From Rhodospirillales bacterium (lineage in GTDB: Bacteria; Pseudomonadota; Alphaproteobacteria; Acetobacterales; Acetobacteraceae), in assembly GCA_025351925.1 (NCBI GenBank), contig JANXVC010000049.1, forward strand, positions 1-35,499: 35,499 bases of DNA, read 5' to 3'. Every line of letters starts with the position of its first letter. The first letter of the stretch is position 1. The position numbers and the translations under genes are program-made. The notes below the pieces were generated by a model. That model was given only the letters and a program-made list of their open reading frames with translations. It searched no databases and had not been told where the DNA came from. Positions 6,284 to 12,787 of the stretch are shown in pieces.

Positions 6284-6667
6284 ATGTCAACCACGGGCGA
6301 ACTCCAACCCAGGGTTCTTGTTGTCGAAGACGAGTTCCTCATTCGCTTGACCCTTGTTGAGGCGCTGAGCGACGAGGGTTTTCTGGTGCTTGAGGCCGAA
6401 ACCGGGGATGCGGCGCTGCCCATCCTGCAATCCGACACCACAATCAGTCTATTGCTGACCGACATACAGCTTCCCGGCACACTCAACGGCCATGCATTGG
6501 CATCAAAGGCTCGGGAAAACCTGCCGTATCTGCCGATCATCTTCATGACGGGACGCCCGAGCACCGACGATGAGGCGGACGGCTCCGACCGTGACGTGTT
6601 CATCAGCAAGCCCTACACGCTGGCGAATATCTGCCAGGCGGCGAAGCGGCTGACGACCGCTGAGTAG
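6284..6667 (+). CDS. Single-domain response regulator (CheY-like receiver)
   Basis: A 127-residue protein that is only a receiver domain. Residues: acidic pair Glu15-Asp16 in VLVVEDEFLI, phosphoacceptor Asp60 in LLLTDIQLPG, conserved Thr89 in IIFMTGRP, and Lys109 in FISKPY. There is no output domain, so it must act by protein-protein contact, as a phosphate sink, or through a phosphorelay with a histidine kinase encoded elsewhere. The spacing VFISKPYTL and the acidic loop STDDEADGSDRD resemble receiver proteins linked to hybrid HWE/HisKA2-type kinases of alphaproteobacteria, but that is a guess. Upstream lies a 250-base divergent gap (6032-6283) that is more AT-rich than its surroundings and must carry the promoters of this gene and of the propeller gene; I could not assign boxes. 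Confidence 0.9.
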   Translation: MSTTGELQPRVLVVEDEFLIRLTLVEALSDEGFLVLEAETGDAALPILQSDTTISLLLTDIQLPGTLNGHALASKARENLPYLPIIFMTGRPSTDDEADGSDRDVFISKPYTLANICQAAKRLTTAE

Positions 6668-6732
6668 CGCGCCGGGCAAAGCGGATTGGCCTCATTGTTG
6701 CTAGGCACGGGGTAAACTTCTCGGGAACCGTG

Positions 6733-7998
6733 ATGAGCGCAACACTTCGACCGACCGCCGCCCTGCCTGTCGCCAGCGCGCGATGGGCGCAATTGGGTCT
6801 TGGCCTAATTTGCATGATGGCGATCTCCAGCCCGCAATACGTCTGGACCCTGTTCACCAAGCCGATCGGCGCCACGCTGGGGGCGACGGCTGCCAGCGTG
6901 CAGGTCACCTTCAGCATCCTGATCGTGCTGCAGACCTTCTTCAGCCCGTTGCAGGGCTGGCTGGTCGAGCGTTTCGGCCCGCGCTGGCTGATTGCCGCAG
7001 GGGCCGGGTTGACCGGGCTGAGCTGGGTCCTAGCCGCGACGACCAGCTCGCTGACCGGTCTTTATCTGACGTATGGCCTGCTGGGCGGACTGGGCACCGG
7101 AGTCGTCTATATCGGCGTCGTCGGACAGATGGTCGGCTGGTTCCCCGACCGGCGCGGCTTTGCGGCCGGCGTGGTCGCGGCCGGGTACGGCATGGGCGCC
7201 ATCCTGACGACCTTCCCCATTGCGGACAGCCTCGCCGCTAACGGCTACCAGGCGACTTTGGTCAGGTTCGGCCTCATCTTCGGCGCGGTTGGCGTGCTGG
7301 CAGCGCTCGGCCTGCGCGCGCCGCCGGCCGCCGTCGCCATGCAAACCGGGCCGGCGTCCAGCGTCCGCGACGTCGATACCGCGACCATGCTGCGCAGCCC
7401 GATCTTCTGGCTGATGTTCGCCATGATGTCGATGATGTCCACGTCCGGCCTGATGGTGACCTCGCAGATCGGCGCGATCGCCGGGGATTTCGGCATCACC
7501 AAGCTGATGGTGTGGGGCCTCGCCGCCCTGCCGCTCGCGCTCACCGTGGACCGCTTCTGCAACGGTCTGACCCGGCCGTTCTTCGGCTGGGTGTCCGACC
7601 GCATCGGGCGGGAAAACACCATGGTCATCGCCTTCGGGCTGGAAGGCCTGGCGATGGCGGGCTGGCTCGCGACCAGCGGCAACCCGCTGCTGTTCGTGCT
7701 GATGTCCGGCGTCGTGTTCTTCGGCTGGGGCGAGATCTTCTCGCTGTTCCCCTCGACCCTCACCGACACCTTCGGCGCCAAGCACGCCACCAAGAACTAC
7801 GGCTGTTTGTATATCGCCCAGGGGATCGGCGCGATCTTCGGCGGCCCCGTGGCGTCGCTGCTGCACGAAAGCACCGGAAGCTGGTCCATCGTGTTCGGCC
7901 TGGCGATCGGCGCCGACCTGCTGACGGCTGCGCTGGCGCTTGCAGTGCTGAAGCCGATGCGGGCTGCCTACCTGGCTCGGCCGGTGCCCCAGCGCTAA
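6733..7998 (+). CDS. MFS transporter, oxalate/formate antiporter (OFA) family
   Basis: A 421-residue inner-membrane transporter with about 12 hydrophobic helices. The start region (LGLGLICMMAISSPQYVWTL followed by FTKPIG) and the LVERFGPRWLIAAG loop after helix 2 are typical of the OFA family, which exchanges or imports small carboxylates. The second half contains TRPFFGWVSDRIGRE, with an Arg at about the place of OxlT Arg272. The helix-11 segment reads YGCLYIAQGIGAIFGG; OxlT-type proteins carry a substrate-binding Lys where this protein has Gln, so a substrate other than oxalate is likely (alignment from memory). An ATG at 6733 is preferred to the GTG directly before it. The stop overlaps the convergent amidase by 4 bases. 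The neighbouring GGT-amidase pair suggests the cargo could be an acid released by, or feeding into, those hydrolases. Confidence 0.85.
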   Translation: MSATLRPTAALPVASARWAQLGLGLICMMAISSPQYVWTLFTKPIGATLGATAASVQVTFSILIVLQTFFSPLQGWLVERFGPRWLIAAGAGLTGLSWVLAATTSSLTGLYLTYGLLGGLGTGVVYIGVVGQMVGWFPDRRGFAAGVVAAGYGMGAILTTFPIADSLAANGYQATLVRFGLIFGAVGVLAALGLRAPPAAVAMQTGPASSVRDVDTATMLRSPIFWLMFAMMSMMSTSGLMVTSQIGAIAGDFGITKLMVWGLAALPLALTVDRFCNGLTRPFFGWVSDRIGRENTMVIAFGLEGLAMAGWLATSGNPLLFVLMSGVVFFGWGEIFSLFPSTLTDTFGAKHATKNYGCLYIAQGIGAIFGGPVASLLHESTGSWSIVFGLAIGADLLTAALALAVLKPMRAAYLARPVPQR

Positions 7999-9398
7999 CC
8001 CAGCTGGACCACCGGAAACGGCACTGCCTGCTCCAGCACGCGGGCACCGCGCAGCACGAGGTCGTCCCGGTACATCGCCGCCGACAACTGCACGCTGCGC
8101 GGCAGGCCGGTGGCGCCGACGCCCAGCGGTACGCTGATCGCCGGCTGCCGGGTGAGGTTGAACAGGGCGGTCCAGGGCGCCCAGTCCCGCATGAGCGCCT
8201 GCGACGGCTCGGTCGTGAGCGCGTCGGCCAACGGCGGCGGGCCGGGCACCGTGGGGCACAGCACGAGGTCGAATCGGCGGTGGAACCGTGCCATGAGGTG
8301 CGCGGCCTGGACCCGCAACGCCTCGGTCTGCATGAGCGCCGTTGCCGAAAGGCCTGCCTGCTCGGCTGCGACGTGTTGGATGCCGGCGTCGAGCAGGGCG
8401 CGCTGCTCTGCCGGCATTGCCTCGACCAACGACGCGAGCGCTGCGCCCCAGACCCGGCCAAAGCCCGCGCTGATATCTGGCAAACCAGGGTCCTCGTCGT
8501 CGATCTCGGCCCCGGCATCGGCCAGGACCGCGGCGGCGTGCTCCACGGCAGCGACGCCGTCAGCGTCCACCGGCGCGTCGAACCCAGGGCGGCGCAACAC
8601 CGAGACGCGCAGCCCCGCCACTCCCCGGTCGATGCCGCCCCGCCAGTCGCGGGGATCGTCCGGCAGGCTGAACGGGTCGCGGCCGTCGAAGCGCGCCAAA
8701 GCGGACAGCATCAGCGCGGCGTCCCGCACGGTACGGGTGATCGGCCCCGCCACGGCAACAGCGCCGAAAGCGCCGATCGGCCATTGCGGCACGCGCCCGA
8801 ATGTCGGCTTCAGCCCCACCACGCCGCACCAGGCAGCCGGGATCCGGATGCTACCGCCCGCGTCGGTGCCCAGATGCAAAGGCCCAAAGCCCGCTGCCGC
8901 CGCCGCAGCCGCGCCGCACGATGACCCGCCCGGCGTGCGCGACACGTCGAACGGATTGCGGGTGATGCCGTGCAGCGGACAATCCCCGGGCGTCTTCCAG
9001 CCGAACTCCGTGGTTGTCGTCTTGCCCAGGATCACGGCACCGGCGACCTTCAGTCCCAGCGCGGCAGGCGCATCGTCCGTTACGGGGATCGGCGACGTCG
9101 TGCGGCTGCCCCGCCGCGTCGGGAAACCCGCGAGGTCCACGAGGTCCTTCACCGTGCAGGGCACGCCGTCCAGCGCACCCAACGGCCGGCCGGCGTGCCA
9201 ACGCTGCGCGCTCTCGCCGGCGGCCTGCAGCGCACGCGGATTCATGACGGCGAAGGCATTCAGCGAGGGGTTATGCCGGGCGATGCGCTCGATCACCGCT
9301 TGAAGCGCCTCAACCGGGCTCAGCCGGCCGCTGGCATAATGCGCCAGCAGCGCCTCCGCCGACATCAAAGCGGGGTCGGTCATACGAGAGTCGGTCAT
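7995..9398 (-). CDS. Amidase signature family hydrolase
   Basis: A 467-residue cytosolic amidase from the ATG at 9398. The Ser-cisSer-Lys triad is visible: Lys84 in CTVKDLVD, cis-Ser159 in TPGGSSCG, and nucleophile Ser183 in GTDAGGSIRIPA. The usual GGSSGG loop reads GGSSCG here, a Cys in place of the second-last Gly. Family members hydrolyse carboxylic amides (including aryl amides, acylamino acids and Glu-tRNA amide sites); there are no gatB/gatC genes near, so GatA is unlikely. The ATG overlaps the stop of the gamma-glutamyltranspeptidase gene as ATGA, which indicates translational coupling and fixes the start over the longer ORF from 9422. Its pairing with GGT suggests sequential breakdown of a gamma-glutamylated or amidated compound. 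The 3' end overlaps the MFS gene by 4 bases. Confidence 0.9.
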   Translation of the reverse strand: MTDSRMTDPALMSAEALLAHYASGRLSPVEALQAVIERIARHNPSLNAFAVMNPRALQAAGESAQRWHAGRPLGALDGVPCTVKDLVDLAGFPTRRGSRTTSPIPVTDDAPAALGLKVAGAVILGKTTTTEFGWKTPGDCPLHGITRNPFDVSRTPGGSSCGAAAAAAAGFGPLHLGTDAGGSIRIPAAWCGVVGLKPTFGRVPQWPIGAFGAVAVAGPITRTVRDAALMLSALARFDGRDPFSLPDDPRDWRGGIDRGVAGLRVSVLRRPGFDAPVDADGVAAVEHAAAVLADAGAEIDDEDPGLPDISAGFGRVWGAALASLVEAMPAEQRALLDAGIQHVAAEQAGLSATALMQTEALRVQAAHLMARFHRRFDLVLCPTVPGPPPLADALTTEPSQALMRDWAPWTALFNLTRQPAISVPLGVGATGLPRSVQLSAAMYRDDLVLRGARVLEQAVPFPVVQLG

Positions 9399-10963
9399 GC
9401 CTGGGCGACCGCGGCGGACCACGGGGATAGCGCGTCGCTGATCCCGGTGCGCTGGCCGTCGCGGTCCTGGATCAGGTTCGGGCAGGCGAAGTTGACTGGC
9501 AGCACCGCGTGCTCGACCACCTCAGTCGGGCCATCCTCCCACAGCGCCGCCAGCACGTCCTCAGGCAGCCGCTGGTCGGCGTGTACCGTCTCCGCGTCCG
9601 ACACGTCGATACGCGGATAGTGCGCCGCGACCTGCGGGTCCATGCCGAAACCATCAATGAACGCCAGCATCTGCACGACGGCTGCGAGAATGCGACGCCC
9701 GCCGGACGCTCCAGCCGCCAGCACTGGACGCTCGCCGTCGCGCAGGATCACTGGGCACATGTTGGTCAGCGGGCGCTTGCCAGGGCTGACCGAGTTTGCC
9801 TGGCCGGGCCGCGGATCGAACCACATAACGCCGTTATTCATCAAAATCCCGGAGCCCGGCAGCACCACCCGGCTGCCCATGGACGACAGCAGGGTCGTCG
9901 TCATGGAGACCATCGTGCCGGCAGCGTCGCATACCGTGAGGTGCGTGGTGCAGCTCTCGGCCGCTTTCGGCTCGGCGTCGCCCAGGCCCGACAGGCGCTC
10001 GGCATAAGCGGCCCTCATCGCGCGGGCCAGGGCCACGAACCACGCGGCGTCCGGCGCGGTGCCCACGGGCGGCGCCATGTTCTGCAGCACCAGCGCCAGG
10101 GTCGGCCCGGCGGTCAGCCCGCCAGCGAGCTGCAAGGTCCGGCCCCGCCATGCCGCCTCCTCGCAGGGTAGCACCCGCGCCTCGCACCGGCGCAGGTCGT
10201 CCACGTCCAGCACGCCGCCCATCGCGGCGACGTCGGCGGCGACGCTGGCCGCCACGTCGCCCTCATACAGGTCGCGCAGCCCGGCATGAGCCAGGCGCTC
10301 CAGCGTGTCCGCCAGCCGGCCGAGCTGAAAGAAGCCAGGGTTGCCCTGATACGGCGGCACCGGCGGCAGGCCGTCCGGCAGGTAGATACGGGCGCTCTCG
10401 GGATAGCGCCGCAGCACCGCGGCGGCGTTGGCGACCTTGAGCGTGGTGAACCAATCCTGCGGCAGGCCGCGACGGGCCAGCGCGATCGCCGGCGCCATCA
10501 GCTCGCGGAGCGGCATGGTGCCGAACCGGCCCTGCATATGCGCATAGCCCGCGACCGCGGACGGCACGACGAATGAGAGCGGGCCGTGGATGTTGGCGTC
10601 GCCCTCCACCTCGGGCCAGGTGAACAGGTCCGCCTTGGTGCGGCCGGTCAGCTTGAAGTGCGCGGGATCGAGCCGGCCCGGCGCGCGCGGCCCAAAATCC
10701 ACGACCTCGGCCCGCTTTTGCCCGGCGCGATGCAGCAAGGCGAAGCCAGTGCCGCCCAGGCCGCTGTTCCACGGCTCGACTGCCGCCAGCGCCAGCGCTG
10801 TCGCCACCGCCGCATCGACCGCGTTGCCGCCCGCGTCTAGTACCGCGACACCCGCCAGCGCTGCGTCCCGGGACTGCGATACCACCATGCCGCGCCGGCC
10901 GGTCGCCGCCGATTTTTGTACTTCCCAGTGTTGGGTCAGGTGTGGCGGCGGCACATCAGTCAT
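9395..10963 (-). CDS. ggt: Gamma-glutamyltranspeptidase-family protein
   Basis: A 522-residue N-terminal-nucleophile hydrolase. It carries the family landmarks SQSRDAALAGVAVLDAGGNAVDAAVA near the N-terminus, a GLGGTGFALL turn, and the maturation site SCTTHLTVCDAAG in which Thr339 would be the autocleavage residue and catalytic nucleophile, then GSGILMNNGVMWFDPRPG and GKRPLTNMCP, close to the oxyanion and substrate loops. Typical GGTs cleave gamma-glutamyl bonds of glutathione or related amides. Unlike E. coli Ggt there is no signal peptide, so it probably works in the cytosol, and the residue following the catalytic loop is GSGI-L-MNN rather than the usual LNNxMDDF, so substrate choice may differ. 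The ATG at 10963 has GGAG 6 bases upstream. It is translationally coupled to the amidase downstream (ATGA). Confidence 0.88.
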   Translation of the reverse strand: MTDVPPPHLTQHWEVQKSAATGRRGMVVSQSRDAALAGVAVLDAGGNAVDAAVATALALAAVEPWNSGLGGTGFALLHRAGQKRAEVVDFGPRAPGRLDPAHFKLTGRTKADLFTWPEVEGDANIHGPLSFVVPSAVAGYAHMQGRFGTMPLRELMAPAIALARRGLPQDWFTTLKVANAAAVLRRYPESARIYLPDGLPPVPPYQGNPGFFQLGRLADTLERLAHAGLRDLYEGDVAASVAADVAAMGGVLDVDDLRRCEARVLPCEEAAWRGRTLQLAGGLTAGPTLALVLQNMAPPVGTAPDAAWFVALARAMRAAYAERLSGLGDAEPKAAESCTTHLTVCDAAGTMVSMTTTLLSSMGSRVVLPGSGILMNNGVMWFDPRPGQANSVSPGKRPLTNMCPVILRDGERPVLAAGASGGRRILAAVVQMLAFIDGFGMDPQVAAHYPRIDVSDAETVHADQRLPEDVLAALWEDGPTEVVEHAVLPVNFACPNLIQDRDGQRTGISDALSPWSAAVAQA

Positions 10964-11089
10964 GCGGTTCTCCGGGCTGCCATCCATGCTAAACCCAACC
11001 GGCCCTTCACAACCAGCTGTCCGGTTGACACAGAAGTGTCGCTGGACGTTCTTGTCCTACCAGTATCAGCCGGCGCCATCACGTCCGAA

Positions 11090-11103: not shown

Positions 11104-11850
11104 ATGACCAGCCGCCCCCGCGTCAGCTTTGTCGTCCCTGCCTTCAATGAGGAGCGTCTGCTGCCGGCGTGCCTGGCCGCGATCCAGGCGGAGATCGACC
11201 GCAGCGGATGCCATGCCGAGATCGTGGTGGTGAACAACGCCAGCACGGACGATACCGGCCGCATCGCCGCTGCGACGCCAGGGGTGATTGTGGTCGATCA
11301 GCCGATCAAGGGGCTGGTGCAGGCCCGCAGCGCCGGGTTCGCTGCGGCGACGGGGGAGCTGATCGCCAACATCGACGCCGACACGCTGGTACCGCCGGGC
11401 TGGCTCGACCGCGTGCTGGCGGAGTTCGCCCGCAGCCCGCGGCTGGTGGTGCTCAGCGGACCCTATGACTATTACGACGTGCCCATCCATATCCGCGCCG
11501 CCGCCCGGGTGTTTTATGCCGTAGGGTTCGCCACCTACGTATTCAACAAGCGCGTGCTCGGCGTCGGATCGATGGTGCAGGGGGGCAACTTCGTCCTGGT
11601 AAGGGACGCGCTGGCCGGCATCGGCGGCTTCAGCGATCGGTTTACCTTTTACGGCGAAGATACCGACATCGCGAGCCGCATGAGCCGCGTTGGGGACGTG
11701 AAATTCACCTATGCGCTCACCGCCAAATCGTCCGGACGCCGCCTGCAGGGGGACGGGCTGATCATGACCGGCCTGCGCTACAGCGCGAACTATCTTTGGG
11801 CGACGTACTTCAGGAAGCCGTTCACCACCGCCTGGAACGACTACCGCTGA
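11104..11850 (+). CDS. Family 2 glycosyltransferase
   Basis: A 248-residue GT-A fold glycosyltransferase. The N-terminal VSFVVPAFNEERLLPACLAA is the standard GT2 opening, VVVNNASTDDTG at 42-52 is the nucleotide-binding loop, and the metal-binding DxD motif is DAD at 91-93. The later part has GSMVQGGNFVLVRDALAGIGGF and FYGEDTDIASRMSRVG, the ED-type catalytic-base region. No transmembrane segment is clear, so it is peripheral at the inner face of the membrane. GT2 enzymes transfer sugars from UDP- or GDP-sugars or dolichyl/undecaprenyl carriers; donor and acceptor cannot be inferred. No other polysaccharide genes surround it, so it is isolated. A TTGACA hexamer at 11025-11030 could be a -35 box but no good -10 lies 17 bases on. 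Confidence 0.88.
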   Translation: MTSRPRVSFVVPAFNEERLLPACLAAIQAEIDRSGCHAEIVVVNNASTDDTGRIAAATPGVIVVDQPIKGLVQARSAGFAAATGELIANIDADTLVPPGWLDRVLAEFARSPRLVVLSGPYDYYDVPIHIRAAARVFYAVGFATYVFNKRVLGVGSMVQGGNFVLVRDALAGIGGFSDRFTFYGEDTDIASRMSRVGDVKFTYALTAKSSGRRLQGDGLIMTGLRYSANYLWATYFRKPFTTAWNDYR

Positions 11851-11899: not shown

Positions 11900-12787
11900 A
11901 TGATCGGAGTCGATTGGGGCACTACCAGTTTCCGTGCCTACCGCCTGCGCGGGCGCACGGTGCTGGACCGGTTGGCCCTGCCGCTCGGCATCCTGAGCGT
12001 GACCGAGGGCCGGTTCGAGCAGGCGCTGCAGGATGCCGTGGCGCCCTGGCTCGCTGACGGCGAGCGGCGCATCCTGATGTCCGGCATGATCGGCAGCCGC
12101 CAGGGCTGGATCGAGGCGCCGTACCTGCCCTGCCCTGCTGCCACCGCCGACCTGGCCGGTGCGCTGATTCGCGTCCCGTTCGACACGGCGGAGCTGCTGC
12201 TGGTGCCCGGCCTGACCGCGACCGATCCTGCCGGCGTGCCCGAGGTCATGCGCGGCGAGGAGGTGCAGATTTTCGGCGCGCTCGACTCGGCCAGTGCGGA
12301 CACAACGGTCTGCCTGCCGGGCAGCCACTCGAAATGGGCGCATGTCGCCAGTGGCAGTATCGAGAGCTTCAGTACGCATCTGACCGGGGAGGCTTTTGCC
12401 GCGCTGCGCAGCCACACGATCCTGGGCCGGCTGATGCAGGCGGACGCGCCGCCCGACGCCGACGCATTTCATCGTGGCGTGCTGCGCTCGGCCGCCCCCG
12501 GCGGGCTGCTGCACCATCTGTTCGGCGTCCGCACCCTGGGCCTTTTCGCCCAACTGCCGGAGGCCGCGTCGGCCTCCTATCTGTCGGGCCTGCTGATCGG
12601 CCACGAGGTCCACGCTGCCGCCGCCGGGTCGAATGTCCTGCTGATTGGCGCCGGCGCGCTATGCGAGCTGTATGGCCAGGCGATCGCCCTATGCGGCGGC
12701 AGCGCCACGCTGGCGAAGGCCGACGCGGCGGCGCAAGGTCTGGCGCTGATCGGAGAACAAGCCGCATGGACGTCCAGAAGCTCCTGA
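11900..12787 (+). CDS. dgoK: 2-dehydro-3-deoxygalactonokinase
   Basis: A 295-residue sugar-acid kinase of the ASKHA fold that phosphorylates 2-keto-3-deoxygalactonate at C6. The phosphate-1 loop is IGVDWGTTSFRAYRL at 2-16. Family-typical blocks follow: MSGMIGSRQGWIEAPYLPCP, VPGLT, PEVMRGEEVQIFG, VCLPGSHSKWAHV, and STHLTGEAFAALRSHTILG. The length matches DgoK. It starts at ATG 11900, 50 bases after the glycosyltransferase, with a modest ACAGGAGC ribosome site. The next gene begins 22 bases before its stop, so the two are surely cotranscribed. Together they form the De Ley-Doudoroff lower branch of galactonate catabolism. A dehydratase (dgoD) or galactose/galactonate dehydrogenase of the enolase family is absent from the window. 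Confidence 0.94.
   Translation: MIGVDWGTTSFRAYRLRGRTVLDRLALPLGILSVTEGRFEQALQDAVAPWLADGERRILMSGMIGSRQGWIEAPYLPCPAATADLAGALIRVPFDTAELLLVPGLTATDPAGVPEVMRGEEVQIFGALDSASADTTVCLPGSHSKWAHVASGSIESFSTHLTGEAFAALRSHTILGRLMQADAPPDADAFHRGVLRSAAPGGLLHHLFGVRTLGLFAQLPEAASASYLSGLLIGHEVHAAAAGSNVLLIGAGALCELYGQAIALCGGSATLAKADAAAQGLALIGEQAAWTSRSS

Follow-up and report, generated by a model that had tools for sequence, protein, structure and literature searches.

A GGT-fold hydrolase, an amidase and an OFA-family carrier encoded together in an Acetobacteraceae genome: a possible uptake-and-hydrolysis locus for a short half-amide

Genes of the gamma-glutamyltransferase (GGT) family have been described beside amidase-signature genes. 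The hpxWXYZ genes, proposed to serve amide catabolism, combine a GGT-family gene with an amidase gene (PMC3560190, PMC5270733), and a GGT-family gene adjoins an amidase-signature gene in the ggt-atzG-atzE-atzH clusters of Enterobacteriaceae (PMC6219798). HpxW is reported to convert oxamate to oxalate and ammonium (PMC5270733). The transporter OxlT is described as gripping the two carboxylates of oxalate with R272 and K355, both of which are needed, and its K355Q variant as non-functional for oxalate (PMC10070484). Here we analyze contig JANXVC010000049.1 of a Rhodospirillales bacterium of the family Acetobacteraceae (assembly GCA_025351925.1; 35,499 nucleotides, referred to as the window), in which a GGT-family gene, an amidase-signature gene and a gene for an OFA-family carrier of the major facilitator superfamily (MFS) lie together. 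Our preferred reading, held tentatively and at rather less than even strength, is that this locus takes up and hydrolyses a short half-amide, meaning an acid that carries an amide beside a single free carboxylate. Oxamate, which has one of each, or a close relative of it is the likeliest such compound. The argument rests on the following features of the window.

10963 to 9395, minus strand: GGT-family gene; ATG start, 522 amino acids, PF01019 at 294 bits (cut-off 27).
9398 to 7995, minus strand: amidase-signature hydrolase gene; 467 amino acids, PF01425 at 292.3 bits (cut-off 27).
6730 to 7998, plus strand: OFA-family MFS carrier gene of the Q/F type defined below; 422 amino acids, TIGR04259 at 428.6 against a cut-off of 335.
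9395 to 9398, minus strand: ATGA overlap of the GGT stop codon with the amidase ATG, from the open reading frame coordinates; recurs in the same-genus genome G017.
7995 to 7998, both strands: four-base convergent overlap of the carrier TAA and the amidase TAG, from the open reading frame coordinates.
9947 to 9949, minus strand: Thr339 of the GGT, equivalent to the catalytic and autoprocessing Thr391 of E. coli GGT; Thr in 80/80 orthologs and in 29/29 sequences of a wider alignment.
9821 to 9823, minus strand: Trp381 of the GGT, aligned with Asp433 of E. coli GGT and within the signature NNG..WFDP; Trp in 80/80 orthologs and 29/29 of the wider alignment.
7573 to 7575, plus strand: Arg282 of the carrier, equivalent to the carboxylate clamp Arg272 of OxlT and kept; Arg in 58/58 other carriers.
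7819 to 7821, plus strand: Gln364 of the carrier, which by alignment replaces the second carboxylate clamp of OxlT, Lys355.

No gene lies between the window GGT and amidase genes. A sequence-only reading of this DNA had proposed the ATGA overlap of these two genes and the four-base overlap with the carrier gene, and the coordinates bear this out. Both overlaps are identical in G017; in G163 a five-base gap stands in place of the overlap of the carrier and amidase stop codons, and the contig ends inside the amidase gene. The GGT reading frame has an alternative, longer start at 10987, and relatives align from the Met encoded at 10963. The ATGA overlap would couple translation of the GGT and the amidase. 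The wider picture in that reading, in which two hydrolases, both probably cytosolic, are compactly grouped with a carrier for an amide compound, is likewise supported.

The window carrier matched OxlT (8hpj) at 190.6 bits and retains the pocket residues Q34, Y35, Y124, Y150, N268, R272, and W324 of OxlT, with three changes, K355 to Gln, Y328 to Phe, and W352 to Tyr. Of the two basic residues of OxlT (R272 and K355) it therefore holds only the first. Position 355 is Gln in 11 of 11 distinct carrier orthologs at 56–87% identity, and a paralog of the carrier in the same genome has kept K355. We compared 58 carriers besides that of the window. Those at 56–87% identity in which the site was resolved have Gln (27) or Phe (4) at this position (n = 31, the Q/F type), and those at 43–48% have Lys (n = 26, the K type); one unresolved carrier (L288) is in neither count. 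In a midpoint-rooted tree the K-type carriers fell on one side and the Q/F-type carriers on the other, together with the unresolved one. With one arginine clamp kept and Gln in place of the lysine, the window carrier should prefer a substrate with one carboxylate and a neutral polar group. Oxalyl-CoA decarboxylase (Oxc), the usual partner of an oxalate-formate antiporter although not its defining feature, did not score over the cut-off in the window's own genome (best 235 vs 739.4; the assembly is 5.92 Mb in 547 contigs and 97.7% complete), and growth on oxalate is therefore unlikely. Oxc passed the cut-off in 11 of 289 class genomes, the own genome not being among these; G528 has Oxc and a Q/F-type carrier on one contig (C1), about 2 Mb apart.

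The neighbours of other Q/F-type carriers fit the half-amide reading. We searched the carrier stretches by tblastn with five GGT queries and found a GGT-family neighbour at 12 of 31 Q/F-type loci vs 0 of 26 K-type loci (Fisher p = 0.0002). Some of the K-type loci are flanked by little sequence; among loci with 3 kb or more to either side of the carrier the figures were 11/27 vs 0/16 (p = 0.003). These tests ignore phylogeny and the K-type sample consists only of Acetobacteraceae and Azospirillaceae, both points against the half-amide reading. Eleven of the 12 neighbours are HpxW-type, with at least 53% identity to the L258 and L266 proteins, for which HpxW (5hft) was the best match (358+266 and 359+264 bits). 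The twelfth, in G017, is a GGT of the window type. Gaps between carrier and HpxW-type genes range from 105 to 2767 bases, and same-strand, convergent and divergent orders all occur, suggesting that rearrangement has not broken the link. The annotated order is amidase-GGT-oxlT on the Paraburkholderia plasmid pBN1 and GntR-hpxW-oxlT on a plasmid of P. largidicola, each with a GGT of the HpxW type. We infer that Q/F-type carriers transport oxamate or half-amides, and that the window holds a version with non-HpxW hydrolases, namely another GGT subfamily and an amidase. No HpxW ortholog is apparent in the own genome, whose PF01019 genes reach at most 35% identity to the HpxW-type proteins. Two side observations were made in this survey. 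A further GGT-family type (L140:1790-3565 and G000:C362:26678-28345; PF01019 at 359.9 bits) is shared by G164 and the own genome at 72% identity, and the G164 gene is 2.4 kb away from a Q-type carrier. The 5.37-Mb Klebsiella pneumoniae 'plasmid' H37 (CP125156.1) is probably a mislabelled chromosome.

The window GGT is a GGT by fold. GGT structures were the best structural matches of its AlphaFold model (pLDDT 83.1, pTM 0.89), which aligned with B. licheniformis GGT (4y23; VIA Z 48.8, rmsd 3.1, 486 residues aligned) and E. coli GGT (2e0w_B; VIA Z 45.8, rmsd 2.2, 442 aligned). The protein scored below the TIGR00066 equivalog cut-off (244.7 vs 357.85). We compared the 80 closest loci, whose named records are mostly Acetobacteraceae with two from Lichenibacterium, using E. 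coli GGT numbering read off the alignment of the window GGT to that enzyme. Thr391, Thr409, and the GG pair are retained in all 80, and in all 80 the gamma-glutamate-binding positions are replaced (R114 to Gly, N411 to Leu, Q430 to Gly, and D433 to Trp), as is S463 (to Asn). In the wider alignment of 29 sequences, which includes eight plasmid relatives at 38–48% identity, the Leu, Gly, Trp, and Asn at positions 411, 430, 433, and 463 hold throughout, and position 114 is Gly in 25 sequences and Asn in four. C338-T339, NNG..WFDP and GGR are common to this alignment. The stretch that forms the lid loop in E. coli GGT aligns with a gap in the window GGT. Because the set of R114, N411, Q430, and D433 is absent from all 80 relatives, a gamma-glutamyl substrate appears unlikely. 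The loop GSGILMNN had been singled out as unusual; this stretch takes at least 12 forms among the 29 sequences, of which GSGILMNN is one. This subfamily, present in 129 of 249 host-family genomes and 43 of the 289 class genomes sampled, is annotated as gamma-glutamyltransferase but is not expected to bind gamma-glutamate in the manner of the E. coli enzyme.

Export signals were sought with a crude scan (12-residue mean Kyte-Doolittle hydropathy within the first 45 amino acids) in the 79 orthologs with a start codon from the 80 loci. One of 79 exceeded 2.0 from the chosen start and none did from the longest start, and the window GGT reached 1.72. The GGT had been claimed to lack a signal peptide, and by this crude measure 78 of 79 relatives have no signal-like stretch.

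Amidase signature enzymes share a Ser-cisSer-Lys motif, and the window amidase has these residues together with its PF01425 match; K84, S159, S160, and S183 are invariant in 25/25 sequences. Its score was just under the PRK06169 cut-off (503 vs 506). The supposed oddity of its loop GGSSCG did not hold up, as the Cys occupies a variable position (Ser in 21, Cys in 2, Ala in 1 and Gly in 1; n = 25). Of 18 amidase loci away from the GGT, six were examined, and these had no common partner that we could see.

According to the half-amide reading, the OFA carrier may import oxamate and, by analogy with OxlT, export the product oxalate in exchange. The GGT-fold N-terminal nucleophile (Ntn) hydrolase, the amidase, or both would split the amide inside the cell, releasing ammonia and a dicarboxylate. 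We infer the substrate, the direction of transport, which hydrolase cuts, and that these hydrolases replace HpxW. A bolder proposal, which we regard as rather unlikely, is that Q/F-type OFA carriers are an unrecognised class of oxamate (half-amide) transporters, perhaps working as oxamate-in/oxalate-out antiporters, and that the genus of the window replaced HpxW with a GGT that has another pocket and is coupled to an amidase. If true, such antiport would gain nitrogen and charge separation and discard carbon, and the metabolism of oxamate and purine nitrogen would gain candidate genes for its uptake step. The label 'oxalate/formate antiporter' would be wrong for the whole Q/F group if its members take oxamate or half-amides. 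Searches of open-licence papers found none connecting oxamate with OxlT or a formate antiporter, none by title on MFS oxamate uptake in purine metabolism, none on a cyclic imide together with a half-amidase, and none tying GGT and amidase to Acetobacteraceae.

A number of findings weigh against the half-amide reading. The window GGT is only 26–29% identical to the HpxW-type proteins of L258 and L266, its pocket string is GTTLGWTNGGR vs CTSYRSHTGGD in the HpxW type, and its matches to structures were 44 bits for 5hft_A and 27.3 bits for 5hft_B, with 170.6 for 4y23. On the basis of this identity and the different pocket string it was rejected as an HpxW ortholog. The amidase of pBN1 shares only 34% identity with that of the window and is not orthologous. 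No GGT neighbour was found for 19 of the 31 Q/F-type carriers, and the positives fall in few lineages, namely Burkholderiales plasmids, four genomes of genus g321, G802, G164, and the window's genus; because three Paraburkholderia positives are near-identical, independent events number fewer than 12. Four positives (L258, L266, L277, and L278) have Phe rather than Gln at position 355. Two Q carriers adjoin aromatic-acid genes, that of L275 annotated catechol and beta-ketoadipate genes and that of L135 domains of the protocatechuate 3,4-dioxygenase beta subunit, which makes aromatic monocarboxylates possible substrates of the carrier. Finally, the transporter that adjoins the GGT in G154 and in distant relatives belongs to another family.

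A strong rival, nearly as likely as the half-amide reading, is that the GGT and the amidase scavenge imported amides or peptides and that the OFA carrier, their neighbour in one genus, serves another monocarboxylate. The genes that flank the locus are as follows.

6284 to 6667: response-regulator gene.
11104 to 11850: glycosyltransferase gene, divergent from the GGT gene.
11900 to 12787: DGOK gene.

G017 has no glycosyltransferase gene at the corresponding spot, and the DGOK gene adjoins the GGT gene there. The bystander role of the carrier is favoured by its distribution. An OFA gene is present at 0 of 80 GGT loci. Carrier orthologs (at least 56% identity) occur in 15 of the 249 family genomes, a list that leaves out G094, which has two fragments (61 and 65%) and lacks any match to the GGT or the amidase. 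The carrier shares a contig with the GGT or the amidase in three genomes only, those of the window, G017, and G163, and these belong to a single genus. In a fourth genome of this genus, G108 (73% complete), the response-regulator gene comes next after the amidase gene, and the carrier gene is missing from between them. The spacer of about 90 bases in G108 retains a string of 14 bases found ahead of the carrier start in both G017 and G163, and this remnant points to deletion of the carrier; the window's own leader has diverged from the string. The OFA gene was also found in 0 of 37 class-level operon runs, counting same-strand runs only, and at eight plasmid loci distant GGTs stand beside ATP-binding cassette (ABC) importer, M20, M81 or polysaccharide-deacetylase genes. 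Against a bystander stand the exact double overlap retained in G017 and the fact that Q/F-type carriers are linked to genes of the GGT family elsewhere, in several lineages and orientations. The orthologous GGT-amidase-OFA trio is limited to the genus, one of whose four genomes lacks the carrier at the locus, and a conserved orthologous trio beyond it was rejected. The conservation expected by the sequence-only reading thus fails outside the genus. It holds at family level for the GGT-amidase pair, and in other lineages Q/F-type carriers are associated with another GGT-family enzyme, that of the HpxW type.

Among the 249 family genomes, 106 have both the GGT and the amidase, 23 the GGT alone, 23 the amidase alone, and 97 neither, counted with no phylogenetic correction. 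Amidase orthologs number 129/249 in the typed list, which omits the fragment-only genomes G018, G098, G108, and G206 and second matches below 54% identity and retains other fragments (G163, G171), and 133/249 by E-value. Where both genes are present they share one contig in 51 genomes and are at most 10 kb apart in 46 (19 genera); in 42 of these 46 the amidase is downstream of the GGT on the same strand. An amidase ortholog (at least 63% identity) lay within the fetched stretch of 24 of the 80 GGT loci. Direct coupling, with a gap below 120 bases, is rare (five genomes, three genera). The two genes belong together at family level, loosely. The pair in G154 (L112) has a 10-base gap and belongs to a run of same-strand genes that also includes a RidA-family gene, TctA, TctB, and TctC, the last three for a tripartite tricarboxylate transporter and thus another carboxylate carrier adjoining a GGT-amidase pair. 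A distant pair on a Thioclava plasmid overlaps by one base. At class level the GGT was recognised in 37 of 40 loci, and in 10 of them no other gene shared its same-strand run. No single recurrent partner emerged from these 37 runs; the labelled ones were a Dpp-type ATPase (3), a Dpp-type substrate-binding protein (3), a deacetylase (2), and an amidase, M20, M81, TctA, TctC, and Dpp permease (1 each), and most other runs had neighbours with no label in the reference set used.

Several further arrangements were seen around GGT genes. GGT-amidase pairs in L109 and L110 lie beside protocatechuate dioxygenase genes (by Pfam) or annotated catechol genes. On Rhizobiales plasmids (L127, L128, L130, and L133), deacetylase-GGT pairs, three of four overlapping by four bases, are near ABC importer genes. 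On an Aminobacter plasmid (L126) a GGT gene of 48% identity has a one-base overlap with an LLM-class oxidoreductase gene, and genes for an ABC importer, an N-formylglutamate deformylase and a flavin reductase follow.

We consider improbable a cyclic-amide or pyrimidine-type pathway, in which ring opening by a polysaccharide deacetylase, PuuE-like or imidase-like, yields a linear amide that the GGT and the amidase then cleave. It is suggested by Roseomonas-type clusters that place the GGT and the amidase with a RutA-model protein (TIGR03612, 597.6 vs 498.3), a deacetylase weakly like the allantoinase PuuE (89.9 bits, cut-off 424.6), and FAA-hydrolase and M20 genes, and the own genome has a 74% deacetylase homolog on another contig. 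However, a search of the own genome for RutA at E 1e-70 gave no match, the window locus has no deacetylase gene, and outside the family a deacetylase occurs in only 2 of 37 operon runs. The Roseomonas-type clusters themselves (L052, L076, L143, and L144) hold the GGT, the amidase (not in L143) and a RutA-type protein (over the TIGR03612 cut-off in L076), with a PuuE-like deacetylase, FAA hydrolase, M20, TctC and an upstream GntR regulator in varying combination, and are possibly an undescribed ring-amide pathway. A second deacetylase copy in the own genome (G000:C312:7669-8306, L154) is in pieces and has an in-frame TAG; the intact 74% homolog is on C111.

Catabolism of gamma-glutamyl amides by a true cytosolic gamma-glutamyl enzyme, as first proposed for this locus, is very unlikely. 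The GGT-family enzyme IpuF acts on gamma-glutamyl amides, and the fold and the catalytic Thr are present here; the gamma-glutamyl reading was rejected on account of the replaced pocket residues, to which the missing lid-loop stretch adds. For E. coli GGT a review reports that the activity of R114L is undetectable and that D433N lost transpeptidation, left 82% of hydrolysis, and gained cephalosporin acylase activity (PMC8062742). Least probable of all is the view of the carrier as a conventional oxalate:formate antiporter that serves oxalate feeding; the TIGR04259 score would allow it, and it was rejected because K355 is replaced and Oxc is missing over the cut-off.

The window locus can thus be placed against known systems as follows. 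The GGT shares with the E. coli and Bacillus GGTs the fold, the autoprocessing and catalytic Thr and the GG motif, and differs from them in having no glutamate-binding residues, no E. coli lid loop, and no clear signal peptide. It also resembles the YwrD or cephalosporin-acylase-like GGT relatives (VIA Z 40.5 for 2nlz_A and 42.1 for 2i3o_B, chains that we take to be linked to YwrD), from which it is set apart by the signatures NNG..WFDP and PL[TC]N. R114 is described as absent from extremophile GGTs too, and YwrD as intracellular with no assigned role (PMC8062742). The carrier is of the same family as OxlT (8hpj/8hpk) and shares most of its pocket residues, and differs in the residues at 355, 328, and 352 and in being encoded in a genome with no oxc over the cut-off. 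Like the hpxWXYZ and ggt-atzG-atzE-atzH clusters, the window pairs a GGT-family gene with an amidase-signature gene. Its amidase scored 210.2 against a cut-off of 461 on the model PRK09201 for AtzE, of which HpxX is presumably a homolog, and in contrast to those clusters it has no gene between the GGT and the amidase and adds an OFA carrier.

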